Below, one piece after another: positions 55,994-63,176 of a stretch of DNA of 64,000 nt. Under the pieces are notes generated by a model. The model did no database searches and was not told the origin of the DNA. It saw only the letters and a list, made by a program, of their open reading frames with translations. The DNA is from Leptospirales bacterium (GTDB lineage: Bacteria; Spirochaetota; Leptospiria; Leptospirales; Leptonemataceae). Where the stretch lies: NCBI GenBank assembly GCA_019694655.1, contig JAIBBN010000012.1, forward strand, positions 1 through 64,000. The letters run 5' to 3'. Position 1 is the stretch's first letter; each line of letters starts with the position of its first letter. Both the position numbers and the translations under genes were made by a program.

Positions 55994-56479
55994 ATGTCCT
56001 TTTCGCTTAAGATTGAGCCGGAATGGAACGTAATCAAGAGGATCAAAGAAATGATCCTGAAAGACGAGGCCGTCGCCGCCTATGGCAAGGATTTTCAGGA
56101 ACAGGCGTTGCTGGCGGCGATTGAGCTGGTTGAGAATGGACTCAAATACTCCGATGGTCCTCAGGCCTTTCCCGTTGATTTTCGTTTTGAAATGAGCAAA
56201 GAGCAATGCTTGATTGAAGTTCGCAACCGCACCAGCAGCGAGCTGCATCGCCAGGCGCTGCGCGAGACTTTGGACAAGATGCGCAGCGGAGATCCATTCG
56301 AGATGTATGTGGAACGTCTGGAGCAGGTCAAGCACCGGCCGGACGGCTTCAGTCGTATGGGATTGATTCGAATCATTTACGAAGCGGAGTTTGAGCTGTC
56401 GGCCGATATCCAGGGCGACCAGATAGTGATGCGCGCCGTTCGGAAGCTTGAGCCTCAGGGCACAGTCGGGAAAGAATGA
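55994..56479 (+). CDS. HATPase-like regulator (anti-sigma-kinase-like, slr1658-type)
   Basis: A 161-residue protein. The segment LLAAIELVENGLKYSDG is an N-box as in GHKL/HATPase domains (Glu and Asn present), and GFSRMGLIRIIYEAEF may be the G2-type loop. The classical G1 DxGxG is not seen, so kinase activity is uncertain. Size and position, just before a STAS-like protein, match the regulator pair described in cyanobacteria as slr1658/slr1659. The stop overlaps the next start (ATGA). Confidence 0.72.
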   Translation: MSFSLKIEPEWNVIKRIKEMILKDEAVAAYGKDFQEQALLAAIELVENGLKYSDGPQAFPVDFRFEMSKEQCLIEVRNRTSSELHRQALRETLDKMRSGDPFEMYVERLEQVKHRPDGFSRMGLIRIIYEAEFELSADIQGDQIVMRAVRKLEPQGTVGKE

Positions 56480-56844
56480 AGCTGAAGAATCTGGCCATTG
56501 ACGAGTTTTCAGTCGAGCCCTCCGTGGAGGAGGGGCGGATGAATCTGCATTTTCGCGGGGCGATCCACGCTGCGCAGCCGGAAGAGTTTCTATCGCCGTA
56601 CCTGGACCGGGCTCTGGAAGAAGCAAGCGAGGGCAAACTACGTTTGGTCTGCGACTTCCGTGAGCTGGAGTACATGAATTCGGCCAGTATTCCGCCGCTG
56701 ATCCACCTTCTGCGGCGCATGGCCGAACTGCAGGTAGAGGGCGAGTTTATCTATGACGCATCGAGAAAGGTTCAGACGGCTTCCTTTCGCGCCCTTGATG
56801 TGATTGCACGGAAGTCAGAGTTCACCAGCGTTCGGGGAGTTTGA
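56476..56844 (+). CDS. STAS-like regulator (slr1659-type)
   Basis: A 122-residue single-domain protein. The pattern MNLHFRGAIHAAQPEEFLSPYLDRAL, LRLVCDFRELEYMNSASIPPLIHLL fits a STAS fold, with Ser residues in NSASIPP at the phosphorylation loop. It is a likely substrate of the flanking SpoIIE phosphatases and partner of the HATPase-like protein. It overlaps both neighbours: ATGA with the gene before and TGATG with the gene after, so all three are translationally coupled. Confidence 0.78.
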   Translation: MKLKNLAIDEFSVEPSVEEGRMNLHFRGAIHAAQPEEFLSPYLDRALEEASEGKLRLVCDFRELEYMNSASIPPLIHLLRRMAELQVEGEFIYDASRKVQTASFRALDVIARKSEFTSVRGV

Positions 56845-58043
56845 TGGAATTGCCCGGCGTCGATCAACTGTGGCAGCTTTCGCCAGCAGCGCAGCTGATC
56901 ATTGATCGGGAGTTTGTTCGCGAGGCGAATGCGGCGGCGCTGACCATGCTGGGAATGCGGCGCGAAGACTTGATCGACGCCAGCGATTGGAGCGAACGAT
57001 TGTTTGGCGACCTGGAGCAATCCTATCGGTTCTCCCGGTTCTTGTATGGCGATCGGCGGCAGAAGCATCTCGACCTGCACTTACGCCGCGGTGCGCTCCG
57101 TCACGTCCGCGTATTCTGCACTACGCTGGAAGAAGGCGAACTGTTTCACCTTGCCCTGCAAGATATTACGGACCTGCTGGAGGATGCTCAAGTTTATCAG
57201 GCCGGCTACGATGAGTTCTTGAAAGTAACTACCGAGCTGGAAAAGGCGCTGAAGGTTATCGAGCGGCAGAACGAATTGCTGGAGCGGCAGAAGCACACCC
57301 TGGAAAGCGAGCTGTCTATCGCGCACAATGTTCAGGTGCAACTGGTCGCCGAGGAGTTCTCCCGATTCACAACGGTGCGAATCGCCGGCCACTACGCCAC
57401 CATGGCTGATCTGGGCGGAGACACCTGGGAATTCTACGAGGAGGACGGCGAGTTCTATGGCGTCATCGGCGATGTCATGGGCCACGGCGTCGCCGCCAGC
57501 CTGATTGGAATTGCCGCCAAAACGCTGTTCAAGCAGGGATTCGCGGAGACGGCGCGCAACAAAACCGATCTTGCGCGTTTGACCGGCTCGCTCAATAAAG
57601 AGCTGAATGAGATTACCCGGGGAAATTACTATGTGACAGCTTGCATGCTGCACATCAGTCCGAACGGTCGCATGGAGTACCTGACCTGCGGACATCCGCC
57701 TTTTTTCATCGTACGGCGCAAAGCCGGCCTCGGCGAGCAGGTCTTTACGTCGCAGCCAATGCTTGGCATCTTTCATCCGGTAGAATTTGTAAGCGAAGTC
57801 GTCCAGTTGCATCCCGGCGACCGCGTGCTGATGTATACTGACTGCCTGCTGGAAAGTATGGACCCATCCGGAAATCCGCTGAAGCTTGAAGAAGTTACGG
57901 ATATGATCCGCTATGCGCCCAACGTAAATGTGGAAGAAGCGCTGCAGCGCGTGCTGGAGTTCCGCCGGGCGCACGCTCAGACTGCGGAACTCCCCGACGA
58001 TCTGGCCCTCGCCTTGCTGGAACTTCCGCCCGGCGGCGGCTGA
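56844..58043 (+). CDS. PAS-coiled-coil-SpoIIE phosphatase, soluble (399 aa)
   Basis: Domain order: an N-terminal PAS-like domain (about 5-115: LSPAAQLIIDREFVREANAAALTMLG), a coiled coil (about 120-165) and a SpoIIE-type phosphatase domain (about 170-395). Phosphatase motifs: MADLGGDTWEFYEE, IGDVMGHGVAASL, CGHPPFFIV, and LPDDLALALL. The usual TDG is TDC (MYTDCLLES), but the Asp is kept. No membrane segment is present. The ATG at 56844 overlaps the stop codon of the STAS gene. It is the second phosphatase of this module. Confidence 0.92.
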   Translation: MELPGVDQLWQLSPAAQLIIDREFVREANAAALTMLGMRREDLIDASDWSERLFGDLEQSYRFSRFLYGDRRQKHLDLHLRRGALRHVRVFCTTLEEGELFHLALQDITDLLEDAQVYQAGYDEFLKVTTELEKALKVIERQNELLERQKHTLESELSIAHNVQVQLVAEEFSRFTTVRIAGHYATMADLGGDTWEFYEEDGEFYGVIGDVMGHGVAASLIGIAAKTLFKQGFAETARNKTDLARLTGSLNKELNEITRGNYYVTACMLHISPNGRMEYLTCGHPPFFIVRRKAGLGEQVFTSQPMLGIFHPVEFVSEVVQLHPGDRVLMYTDCLLESMDPSGNPLKLEEVTDMIRYAPNVNVEEALQRVLEFRRAHAQTAELPDDLALALLELPPGGG

Positions 58044-59488: not shown

Positions 59489-60265
59489 TCAAGCCTGGGA
59501 ATCGGGCTCGGCCATCCGCAGGCGATCGTACCAATCATTTTCAATGATCCGGATCGTTTCCAGAATCAGTCGATCCTGTCCGCTGGACAGAGACAGAAAC
59601 AAATCGTAGCCGCCGCGCAGAATGCTCTCGCCATATTCCAGCCCGGCGCGCTCGCGGTCGCTGTACAGCTGGGGATGCGCCAGCATCACGGCGCGCGAAC
59701 TCGACATGATGTCCAGGGTGGAGCGCAACAACTGGACATTGGCCAGCGCTTCAAACAGGGCCATGGTCTCTTTCTGGAAGCGGCGCACCCGCGCTTCCGG
59801 TATGGAGCGAATCAAGTCAGCAACTCGCTGTCGGTCGAGCAAATCGCCGCTGTCCCAGCCGCGCTCGGTTGCTTTCCTGGCCAGCTCGCGCTCCAGGGCC
59901 TCGCTCTCCAGATACGCTTCCAGAGTATGGTAGGCTGCTTTCAGCGCAGTACTGATCATCCTGCCCATCTTGAAAACAGTAAAAATGGTTCCGCCAACAA
60001 GCGGCACAAGTTTACGCGGCGATTTTAGAACGCTGCCCAGATTCTGAAAGGCCTGGTCGCGCGTCATCCTTCGATCCGCCGGAGGATACACGCGATCCAG
60101 AAAGAACTCGCGCAGGCGATCAATTACCTCATCGGAGGCTTCGGCCACGCTGCGAAAGCGACGAACATTTGCTACTGTATAGCGATCGTGCAGTTCGATC
60201 CAGTAGGCGGCAGTTACGGCATCGCGCAGCGATTCGGCGTTGCTTTGCAGTGTGTCGCTGCTCAC
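59489..60265 (-). CDS. Helical protein of unknown function, third gene of the MoxR operon (258 aa)
   Basis: A mostly alpha-helical, charged protein with one short hydrophobic stretch (about 86-98, LVPLVGGTIFTVF) that might sit on or in a membrane. Long amphipathic helices follow (LEAYLESEALERELARKATERG, IPEARVRRFQKETMALFEALANVQLL). I recognise no domain. The GTG start overlaps the stop codon of the 651-residue protein (GTGA), so it is made with the two upstream proteins and is probably a subunit of the same system. Confidence 0.7.
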   Translation of the reverse strand: MSSDTLQSNAESLRDAVTAAYWIELHDRYTVANVRRFRSVAEASDEVIDRLREFFLDRVYPPADRRMTRDQAFQNLGSVLKSPRKLVPLVGGTIFTVFKMGRMISTALKAAYHTLEAYLESEALERELARKATERGWDSGDLLDRQRVADLIRSIPEARVRRFQKETMALFEALANVQLLRSTLDIMSSSRAVMLAHPQLYSDRERAGLEYGESILRGGYDLFLSLSSGQDRLILETIRIIENDWYDRLRMAEPDSQA

Positions 60266-62217
60266 CAGATGTAGTCTCCCGCTTCATCGCGTCGCTCGCG
60301 CGAATCCAGGACGTGGAAGCGCCGTATCCGGCCAAGGCGCACCGGGCTGACCTGTGCCAGCGGTATGTGAACTACTTTCTGCCCCAGCCGGGCAGCAATT
60401 TGCGTCAATCGTCTGGAAGGCGCCCTCGCCGAAAGGTGAACTACGGCGCGACGTTCGTTGTATTCGATAGCGGCGGCCAGCAGTCGATCCGCCGGTCGCG
60501 TAAATTCGGCATAGGAAGGGTCGGACCAGATATCGTGGAGCCTTCCGGGCGGGTGCGTAAGCATCAGTCCGCCATAGCGGCTCTGCAGTATGCCAGGTCC
60601 GACAATGCGGCGGGCGGGGTCGCTTGCAAAAAATGCCATATCGCTTTCGCCGCTGTGCTCGCCCCACCAGACGACGCGCCACGGATGCTCGTCTTCGTCC
60701 TCATTGAAGATAATCACGACCGCGCCGGCATCCGCTGCGCGCTGGTGCGCGTCCTTGACAAAGATTCGACCCAGATGAAGATTGCGAATCGTTTCGCGAT
60801 AGTCGATCCCGTCCATCAAGCTGGAGCTGAATGGCAGCGTTCGCGACTCCAGCCCGCGCAACAGGGCGCTGGCGCTCTTCTGCAGGGTGCGGCCAAAATC
60901 TTCAATGACCACATCTTCCGGAGGATAAGAACACATTCCGCCGCGCGACGCCTCGCGCCATTGTCCCGGATATCGTTCGCGCTCGAATCTGCGTTTCAGC
61001 CGCTGCGGAGCATCGCGCTTCTTGCGTTTGATCGGCAGCCGAAAGCGAATCATTCGACTGTCGCGAAATAGCTCTTCCAGCGTGATCTCGCGTTCCGGGA
61101 GACGATTGCCGCGCAAGGGCGGAAGGACGTTCATCACATCGTAAAAAACGCGGGCGAAGTTATCGCCGCCAAAACCGCGGGCGGCCATTAACAGGCGGTA
61201 GGCCGAAGGCAGCACGTCGCCTTCCAGCAGACTCCAGTTACGAGCAAATCGAAAGAAGAGCTTTTCGCGCTGCGGCGGCGTCAGTTCGCCGCTATCCCTG
61301 TCGTAGCGTTCCACGACGTCGCGGTACAGTCGCCGCTGTAGCGTCTGTCGACGAAAGCGCAATACCTGTTGTAGACCGCGGCGTGCAAACAGCCACGCTG
61401 TGTTGAAGTAGCCGGGTTGTACCAGCGAGGCCGCTGATTTTCGGGCAAGGGCCGAGATCGTTGGCGCCAGTTGAGCCCCGCCCTCGCTCATTCGCTGCTG
61501 GCTGGAAAGCATTGCCTCCAGCGGCTCCTCCTCCAATACGCGATCGGGGGCCAACGCTGCAACGCGCAAACGCTCGACCTCAAAGGGGCCGTCCTCCATT
61601 TGAAAGAAGCGGCGCACTCCGCGAAGGTGACGCATTCCACAAACCAGCAGCAGCGGCCTTCGTTCGCTCAAGGTGTCGCCATAAACCTGCGCAAGGTTTC
61701 GCAACTCGGCGGCCATCTGGATTTCGCGCAGTTCATCAATCGCCTGGACTTCCTCCCCGCCGGGATGTAACTGCTGCACGGCAGCATAGGCCTCCCACAT
61801 TGCCGGCGGCATCATTGCCTCCGATGCTGCAACTGTGTCCGGAAACGACTCGCCGATCCAGGCCAGCAGCCGGTCGTGAAAAAAATCTATGGGGTGGATG
61901 GGCAGGCCAGCGTCTTTGGCCGAACGCAGGGCTTCAACCAGCGGTTCCAGCGGTTCCAGGATAAAATGCAGCGGCGGCCGTTCTTCAGTCTGCTCCAGGG
62001 TGACGACCGGAATCTGGTCGGCGTGTTCGAGCGCTGCATCGATGGCTGGCCACATCAATTCCGGAATTTCGATGGCCAGCGCGTATGGCGGCGCCTGGAG
62101 AAACAGACGACGGAGCAGGGTTGTAAACTCCACCGCGCCATGCACAATCGGCAACGCGCGCAGGCCGCTGGCCAGCGGCACTGTCAGCGACTGATAGAGC
62201 AGTTCCGGTTCGTTCAC
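60262..62217 (-). CDS. 651-aa protein with a TraB/TIKI-like N-terminal domain
   Basis: The first 230 residues follow the TraB/PrgY/TIKI pattern: IVHGAVEFTTLLRRLFLQAP then YALAIEIP at the start, and a REIQMAAELRNLAQVYGD helix leading into LLLVCGMRHLRGVRRFF, where the family has a conserved R-x-x-M-A and a Gly-x-x-His-x-x-Gly. Such domains are metal-dependent proteases in eukaryotic TIKI. Residues 270-651 are unassigned; they are basic around 380-420 and later include acidic NEDEDEHPW. GTG start overlaps the MoxR stop codon (GTGA). The TraB link is by motif only. Confidence 0.7.
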   Translation of the reverse strand: MNEPELLYQSLTVPLASGLRALPIVHGAVEFTTLLRRLFLQAPPYALAIEIPELMWPAIDAALEHADQIPVVTLEQTEERPPLHFILEPLEPLVEALRSAKDAGLPIHPIDFFHDRLLAWIGESFPDTVAASEAMMPPAMWEAYAAVQQLHPGGEEVQAIDELREIQMAAELRNLAQVYGDTLSERRPLLLVCGMRHLRGVRRFFQMEDGPFEVERLRVAALAPDRVLEEEPLEAMLSSQQRMSEGGAQLAPTISALARKSAASLVQPGYFNTAWLFARRGLQQVLRFRRQTLQRRLYRDVVERYDRDSGELTPPQREKLFFRFARNWSLLEGDVLPSAYRLLMAARGFGGDNFARVFYDVMNVLPPLRGNRLPEREITLEELFRDSRMIRFRLPIKRKKRDAPQRLKRRFERERYPGQWREASRGGMCSYPPEDVVIEDFGRTLQKSASALLRGLESRTLPFSSSLMDGIDYRETIRNLHLGRIFVKDAHQRAADAGAVVIIFNEDEDEHPWRVVWWGEHSGESDMAFFASDPARRIVGPGILQSRYGGLMLTHPPGRLHDIWSDPSYAEFTRPADRLLAAAIEYNERRAVVHLSARAPSRRLTQIAARLGQKVVHIPLAQVSPVRLGRIRRFHVLDSRERRDEAGDYIW

Positions 62218-63092
62218 TGCAGATAGCGCAGGGCATCGTCGCCGAGTACGCCCATCACCGAATCGTGCATCAGTCCGCGCAACTGCGAAGGCTCGCTGCG
62301 CAGGACTTCGCCCAGCGACTCCGGCGTCGCCGGCAGTTCTTCCCGTTGACGGCGGGCGACGCCAAGCTTCAAGGCCATGCGCGTGATGTTGATGCCGTCG
62401 CGAACGGAGTAAGGCTCGTCGCTGGAATGAGCGCGTTGCAAAAAATCGACAACGTAGCGCACCAGCTCTTCGGGCGCATAGGGCATCTGGGCGCGGAGTA
62501 TTTCCAGTTCCTCGTCGGCGTCGGCAAAGTCGATATAGATTTGCGGCTGCAGGCGACTCTGGATATACTCCGGGACTTCGTAGGTGGAAGCATCCTCATT
62601 CATCGTAGCGCAAAAACGAAATTCAGGATGCGCCTTTACTTTTACGCCAGCTACAATGGACTCAATGTAGCGACGATGATCGAGCAGGGGCGCCAGGGAA
62701 GCCCAGGACTTTTCACCCATCCGGTTTCCTTCGTCCAGCACAGCGACTCCGCCAGCGACCATGGCACTGACCAGCGCCGAGGCGACGTACTTGATTCGTC
62801 CGTTCTCGCCAAGTACCGGCGTGATCAGCAGATCTTCCGGTCGGGTATCCATAGTGGCCTGAAAGATGTAAACTGGACGTTGCAACTCCGCCGCCGCCGC
62901 ACAGGCCAGAGTTGTTTTGCCAACGCCAGGGCGGCCAATCAAACGTGGATTCAGCGGCAAGTCCTCGGGATGCACCTGCATCCAGCAGGCCAGCAGCTGG
63001 TGCAGCACATCGCGATTGCCCACCCATTCGGCGCGGATCTCGTCAGGTCGTCCCAGTTCGATGGAAACGCCGTCAACCAGAAGGGAGTGCAT
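62214..63092 (-). CDS. MoxR-type AAA+ ATPase
   Basis: A 292-residue ATPase. Walker A GRPGVGKT (53-60), Walker B VAVLDEGNRM (from 116), sensor-1 CATMNEDAS with Asn165 and an Arg finger in YIQSRLQPQ (Arg180). MoxR proteins usually act as chaperones with a vWA-domain partner; none is in this operon. The ATG at 63092 is chosen because the longer TTG frame (63146) would leave only 30 bases to the divergent gene. It is the first gene of a three-gene operon with GTGA overlaps throughout. Confidence 0.9.
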   Translation of the reverse strand: MHSLLVDGVSIELGRPDEIRAEWVGNRDVLHQLLACWMQVHPEDLPLNPRLIGRPGVGKTTLACAAAAELQRPVYIFQATMDTRPEDLLITPVLGENGRIKYVASALVSAMVAGGVAVLDEGNRMGEKSWASLAPLLDHRRYIESIVAGVKVKAHPEFRFCATMNEDASTYEVPEYIQSRLQPQIYIDFADADEELEILRAQMPYAPEELVRYVVDFLQRAHSSDEPYSVRDGINITRMALKLGVARRQREELPATPESLGEVLRSEPSQLRGLMHDSVMGVLGDDALRYLQ

Positions 63093-63176
63093 CACTGGCA
63101 GGACGCCCTTGCCCCAGGGGCCCGTCAATTTGGATTGTCCTTTCAAGCCCTGGGCCGACGGGCCGCCATGTAGAAA

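Follow-up and report, generated by a model that had tools for sequence, protein, structure and literature searches.

The locus lies within a 64,000-nt stretch of Leptospirales DNA (hereafter the window) and consists of three genes on the minus strand, encoding a MoxR-type AAA+ ATPase, a 651-aa protein that we refer to as its partner, and a 258-aa helical protein. The features of the locus are as follows:

62214..63092, minus strand: gene for the MoxR-type AAA+ ATPase (292 aa, ATG start at 63092)
62214..62217, minus strand: GTGA overlap of the MoxR stop and the partner start
60262..62217, minus strand: 651-aa partner gene, GTG start, with a TraB-like N-terminus, a helical middle and a conserved, novel C-terminus
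61570..62181, minus strand: predicted TraB/TIKI-fold domain, about residues 13-216 of the partner
61132..61524, minus strand: helical middle region, about residues 232-362 of the partner
60262..60990, minus strand: C-terminal conserved domain, about residues 410-651 of the partner
60262..60265, minus strand: GTGA overlap of the partner stop and the start of the 258-aa gene
59489..60265, minus strand: gene for the 258-aa helical protein, GTG start, apparently an independent passenger

All three open reading frames, and the GTGA overlaps at both junctions (CTGCAGTGAACG and ATCTGGTGAGCA), were confirmed at the locus, and the existence of relatives for each frame indicates that none of them arose by chance. 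The longest MoxR open frame spans 62214-63146 on the minus strand (TTG start, 310 aa); the ATG at 63092, which is also the end coordinate given in an earlier, sequence-only reading of this DNA, is most likely the start, because the homology of relatives begins at residue 19 of this longer frame. The overlaps suggest translational coupling of the genes. The sequence-only reading had taken them to mean production in a fixed ratio, which over-reads them, as they point to coupling and not to stoichiometry.

The ATPase matched Pfam AAA_5 (PF07728; 1.5e-18, over the cut-off), and its nearest solved relatives were midasin, CbbQ and NorQ. Across 69 aligned sequences the Walker A (GRPGVGKTT), Walker B (LDEGNR) and sensor 1 (TMN) motifs were kept, as were the R-finger (SRLQP) and sensor 2 (RDGI) regions; at the sequence level the AAA+ motifs are intact, and with the family match they uphold the earlier assignment to the MoxR-type ATPases. 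The protein scored below the GvpN cut-off and matched PHROG 249, a family named for porphyrin biosynthesis (3.2e-24).

A search for relatives of the partner in GTDB species contigs returned 459 candidate stretches. In the 80 best partner loci of these, a MoxR gene occurred within the retrieved stretch in 76 and was adjacent, that is, within ~400 bases upstream of the partner, in 70, with the adjacent loci spanning Spirochaetota, Desulfobacterota, Omnitrophota, Chlamydiota, Armatimonadota and others. The four loci without a nearby MoxR (4/80), together with a spirochaete of another family (G055), have the cognate MoxR elsewhere in the genome (55-67% identity, E 1e-85 to 1e-111); genomes without the partner contain only remote AAA+ proteins (best E about 1e-9 or worse). 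Presence of the two genes was also compared in 137 genomes, 61 from Spirochaetota and 76 from the Pelotalea chapellei family. Both genes were found in 67 of these and neither in another 67, with two genomes having the partner only and one having MoxR only, so that MoxR is present in 67 of the 69 genomes having the partner. One of the two partner-only genomes carries a fragment, and the lone MoxR is a distant one (31%). Fisher P values were 7e-15 and 2e-18 in the two groups, without correction for common descent, from which both co-occurrence and synteny stem in part. In the Pelotalea chapellei family the pair occurs in 50 of the 76 genomes, nearly always in single copy.

The 258-aa gene is distributed independently of the pair. 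Its relatives occur in 15 other genomes; it adjoins the pair only in the window and in G011, is unlinked to it in G003, G005, G015 and G018, and turns up in all eight genomes sampled from a sister family in which the pair is missing. Judged by these sequence comparisons, the conserved unit comprises two genes, MoxR and the 651-aa protein, and not the trio proposed earlier, which co-occurrence across genomes did not bear out; the 258-aa gene appears as an operon passenger in two lineages. Its product gave a weak match to a FFLEELY-motif family (8e-5, below the cut-off) that its relatives did not give, and matches to Cas8e/Cse1 (E 0.015-0.056) were taken as chance. Separately, many Leptospirales-type genomes were seen to carry the gene but not the MoxR pair.

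The N-terminus of the partner had been read as TraB/TIKI-like, and family models, profile comparison and structure prediction agree with this reading. Among 50 relatives, 14 matched NCBIfam traB (TIGR00261; best 2.8e-6), 25 matched Pfam DUF5682 (best 1.7e-9) and six matched Pfam TraB (PF01963; best 0.0037), while the window's own protein, taken alone, stayed below threshold for the TraB family models. An hhalign comparison of the partner's N-terminal profile with E. coli YehM and its relatives (DUF5682) gave E = 1.6e-17, as against 0.41 or worse in five column-shuffle controls. An AlphaFold2 model of the full partner (mean pLDDT 82, with 80-98 for most of residues 1-220 apart from about 110-160) aligned by VIA-align with ChaN (Z 8.2 over 157 residues), with the erythromycin esterase EreC (Z 6.7) and with other members of the fold group; the top rows were complex IV subunits from Tetrahymena, of unassigned family. 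The TraB/TIKI fold is thereby predicted by VIA-align together with the profiles, and without support from Foldseek, which by itself returned nothing below E 0.001 for the model. A model lacking this fold would have spoken against the sequence-only reading, and that is not the outcome obtained.

The superfamily hallmark is a pair of GxxH motifs with a conserved Glu. The invariants of the partner's domain are an H in a PxxH motif, E, ExxR, D, RE and GxxH, corresponding, in 650-residue numbering, to H25, E49, E94, R97, D110, R163, E164 and G193xxH196; the invariance of H25, E49 and G193xxH196 holds across 50 sequences. The partner has in common with TraB/PrgY, TIKI, ChaN and EreA/EreC the predicted fold, the second GxxH motif, the conserved E and the RExxMA motif; it differs from the superfamily in its first motif, which is PxxH and aligns to GIRH in YehM, in its fused helical and C-terminal domains, and in its operonic association with MoxR.

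The remainder of the partner holds its most conserved part. The middle region is modelled mostly at pLDDT 85-95 from residue 251 on and resembles the helical part of the Mg-chelatase ATPase (Z 8.1, 71 residues), a likeness that may amount to no more than a common helical bundle. An AAA+-lid-like identity for it was rejected, given that bundles match easily and that a comparison with the partner MoxR gave no profile support (E 0.34). The C-terminal ~240 residues, by column statistics, are the best conserved: mean column identity is 53%, compared with 30% in the N-terminal domain, and 29 positions are invariant across 51 sequences, among them S, E, D, E, D, E, T, R, W, E, D, H and R. Its motifs are CSYPPED, DGIDxRETxRN, ESDMAFY, VGPGI and FHVL. 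As stated in the sequence-only reading, this region belongs to no known family: Pfam, NCBIfam and PDB sequences contained no relative of the domain, and searches of solved-structure sequences with the whole partner and with both end domains returned nothing significant. The order of its strands and helices fits an RNase H-like fold, and weak Foldseek rows to RuvC, integrase and Argonaute (E 0.6 or more) were seen; sequence comparison gave this fold no support, and we treat it as a lead from the model.

The MoxR rule, by which these ATPases have a vWA-domain gene as neighbour or a vWA protein as cofactor, is general and not universal (PMC3893208), so that a missing vWA neighbour does not expel the ATPase from the family. 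The absence of such a partner next door, noted earlier, holds both at the locus and across genomes: we found no vWA gene next to the window's MoxR and none among the conserved neighbours of the pair. A vWA domain hidden in the partner's C-terminus was considered and rejected (hhalign against YehP-type vWA, E 0.24), and viral Foldseek matches of the partner to vWA/CobT-like proteins were not significant (E 0.3-2.4). Pelotalea chapellei (G064), which has the pair, gave no VWA_CoxE, VWA_2 or VWA match at E 0.001. The window's own genome does encode unlinked, free-standing vWA proteins, and one of these could yet act as a distant partner of its MoxR.

No third conserved gene accompanied the pair beyond close relatives in the neighbourhood comparison. 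Neighbours vary by phylum, being NYN-like in Leptospirales relatives, J-domain-like in Desulfobacterota, and TtcA-like and SurE-like in Chlamydiota. Ten Desulfobacterota loci (L055, L058, L060, L061, L068, L072, L077, L079, L086 and L099) have a gene for a 140-aa J-domain-like protein after the pair and in the same orientation, and in seven loci of the Geobacter group (L071, L073, L082, L091, L094, L102 and L118) a gene recognized by eye as ferrochelatase-like precedes the pair on its upstream side.

Our best reading is that MoxR and the TraB-fold protein are a stand-alone remodelling pair with a thematic kinship to YehL–YehM; the two genes probably make up a dedicated ATPase–partner module in which the 651-aa protein, and not a vWA protein, serves MoxR. 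MoxR would form a ring-shaped, ATP-driven remodelling ATPase, and the partner would substitute for the vWA cofactor of other MoxR ATPases. The TraB/TIKI domain, a putative metal-dependent hydrolase, keeps both histidine motifs (the first as PxxH) and the glutamate, and the highly conserved C-terminal domain would be the probable business end of the partner. ATP hydrolysis by MoxR would most likely remodel, load or activate the partner or else a client of the partner, much as in CbbQ–CbbO, NorQ–NorD or CobS–CobT. The sequence comparisons show the near-obligate pairing and co-occurrence, the intact AAA+ motifs, the predicted TraB fold and the conservation of the C-terminus; physical contact between the two proteins, the direction of action, the client and any hydrolase activity are what we infer here. 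Several partners of CGN-type and related MoxR ATPases are vWA proteins. The systems CbbQ–CbbO, NorQ–NorD, GvpN and CobS–CobT resemble the window's pair in having an AAA+ protein of the same broad group, with one ATPase and one dedicated partner, and differ from it in that the window's partner has a predicted TraB fold and no detectable vWA.

One of the closest parallels is the E. coli yehL–yehM–yehP–yehQ cluster, which encodes MoxR, DUF5682, vWA and SWIM proteins. The pair might be a reduced form of this system that uses a vWA and a SWIM protein encoded elsewhere: the TraB-like domain is common to YehM and the 651-aa protein, each follows a MoxR gene directly upstream, and plasmid DUF5682 loci keep MoxR together with vWA, SWIM or DUF4132 neighbours. 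We consider this unlikely. The window's pair has two genes only, without a vWA, SWIM or DUF4132 gene; the partner's C-terminal region is unrelated to that of YehM (profile E 0.54), and BLAST comparison of the pair's MoxR with YehL gave nothing significant (E 0.23). DUF5682 (PF18934) had no match in the window's own genome, relatives of the partner match the profile only in part, over about its first 82 positions, and by full-length match the partner appears to fall outside DUF5682, the YehM family. Two genomes, G018 and G055, own a true DUF5682 gene in addition to the pair, and G064, as noted, matched none of the three vWA families. Another explanation is that the pair is a maturation factor, in which MoxR inserts a metal or cofactor into an enzyme, with ligand binding left to the TraB/ChaN-like domain. 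The matches of MoxR to PHROG 249 (3.2e-24) and to CbbQ/NorQ, the haem-binding ChaN having the partner's N-terminal fold, and the ferrochelatase-like gene seen by eye upstream in 7 Geobacter-group loci are consistent with it; the neighbours, however, differ among phyla and no cofactor enzyme consistently comes after the pair, and we give this explanation little weight.

The sequence-only reading had also suggested an NTP-driven conflict system. MoxR–vWA ternary conflict systems are hypervariable and combine MoxR, vWA and a variable third component (Kaur et al. 2020, PMC7159879; eLife 2020), and that paper makes no mention of TraB, TIKI or YehM. By analogy, the window's MoxR could set the threshold for an effector located in the TraB-fold or C-terminal domain. 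Both arrangements place a MoxR ATPase in an operon with a large partner protein, and structure-comparison rows include effectors and toxins that contain TIKI-fold domains. A divergent branch of the pair (2/395 genomes, with partners of 786 and 782 aa) does occur in immune-like gene clusters: in G111 (L156:2616-11837) the divergent MoxR and partner are followed by TPR, cyclic-phosphate receiver (cREC) and DUF4062–STAND genes, and in G284 (L163:5052-9311) TIR-like/NB-ARC-like and WD40-like sequence is encoded nearby on the opposite strand, the TIR-like parts being read by eye at the two ends of an NB-ARC-like core. In this branch, however, Walker A of both MoxR proteins reads GKN and not GKT, a change of Thr/Ser to Asn, and both partners keep the [DG]GID core and have lost RET. 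The window's branch differs from the ternary systems in having neither a vWA nor a variable effector neighbour and in a single-copy, stable distribution within families. A phage or plasmid origin was not supported, as phage records contained no instance of the pair, 72,556 plasmid records contained one (a Chlamydiota plasmid) and IMG/VR contigs gave two hits. PADLOC has no family or model for the partner. Because the pair is single-copy, lineage-stable, absent from phages and nearly absent from plasmids, a conflict role at this locus is improbable, and the suggestion was not sustained; a resident cellular function, not mobile defence, is the best reading.

MoxR ATPases are generally held to act via vWA partners. 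The pair, whose range takes in spirochaetes, Geobacter and environmental chlamydiae with no vWA gene kept alongside, suggests another coupling of ATPase and client, and its 240-residue domain, which shows the kind of conservation seen in enzyme active sites, is unnamed in the family libraries searched. A bolder view, which we offer tentatively and with more doubt than belief, is that the pair represents an undescribed class of MoxR machine, with a TraB/TIKI-fold enzyme instead of a vWA protein as obligate partner, a new, ultra-conserved C-terminal catalytic domain and a divergent form in TIR/STAND clusters; if true, YehM-type DUF5682 proteins would have TraB logic in common with it. The papers searched made no mention of DUF5682 or of a MoxR paired with a TraB-domain protein. 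DUF5682/YehM can be read as a TraB/TIKI-domain protein.

In E. coli yehM itself (L121:11696-13975), the N-terminus of the product appears to be of TraB/TIKI type, with GIRHH, IEGP, RExxMA and GGWH motifs, and the DUF5682 family name carries no mention of a domain of this kind. Near the locus, at 55994-58043 of the window, HATPase anti-sigma-like, STAS-like and PP2C-like genes were read by eye; they form a cluster of the RsbW/RsbV/RsbU partner-switch type, as judged by eye, that is kept in G011 (L028).
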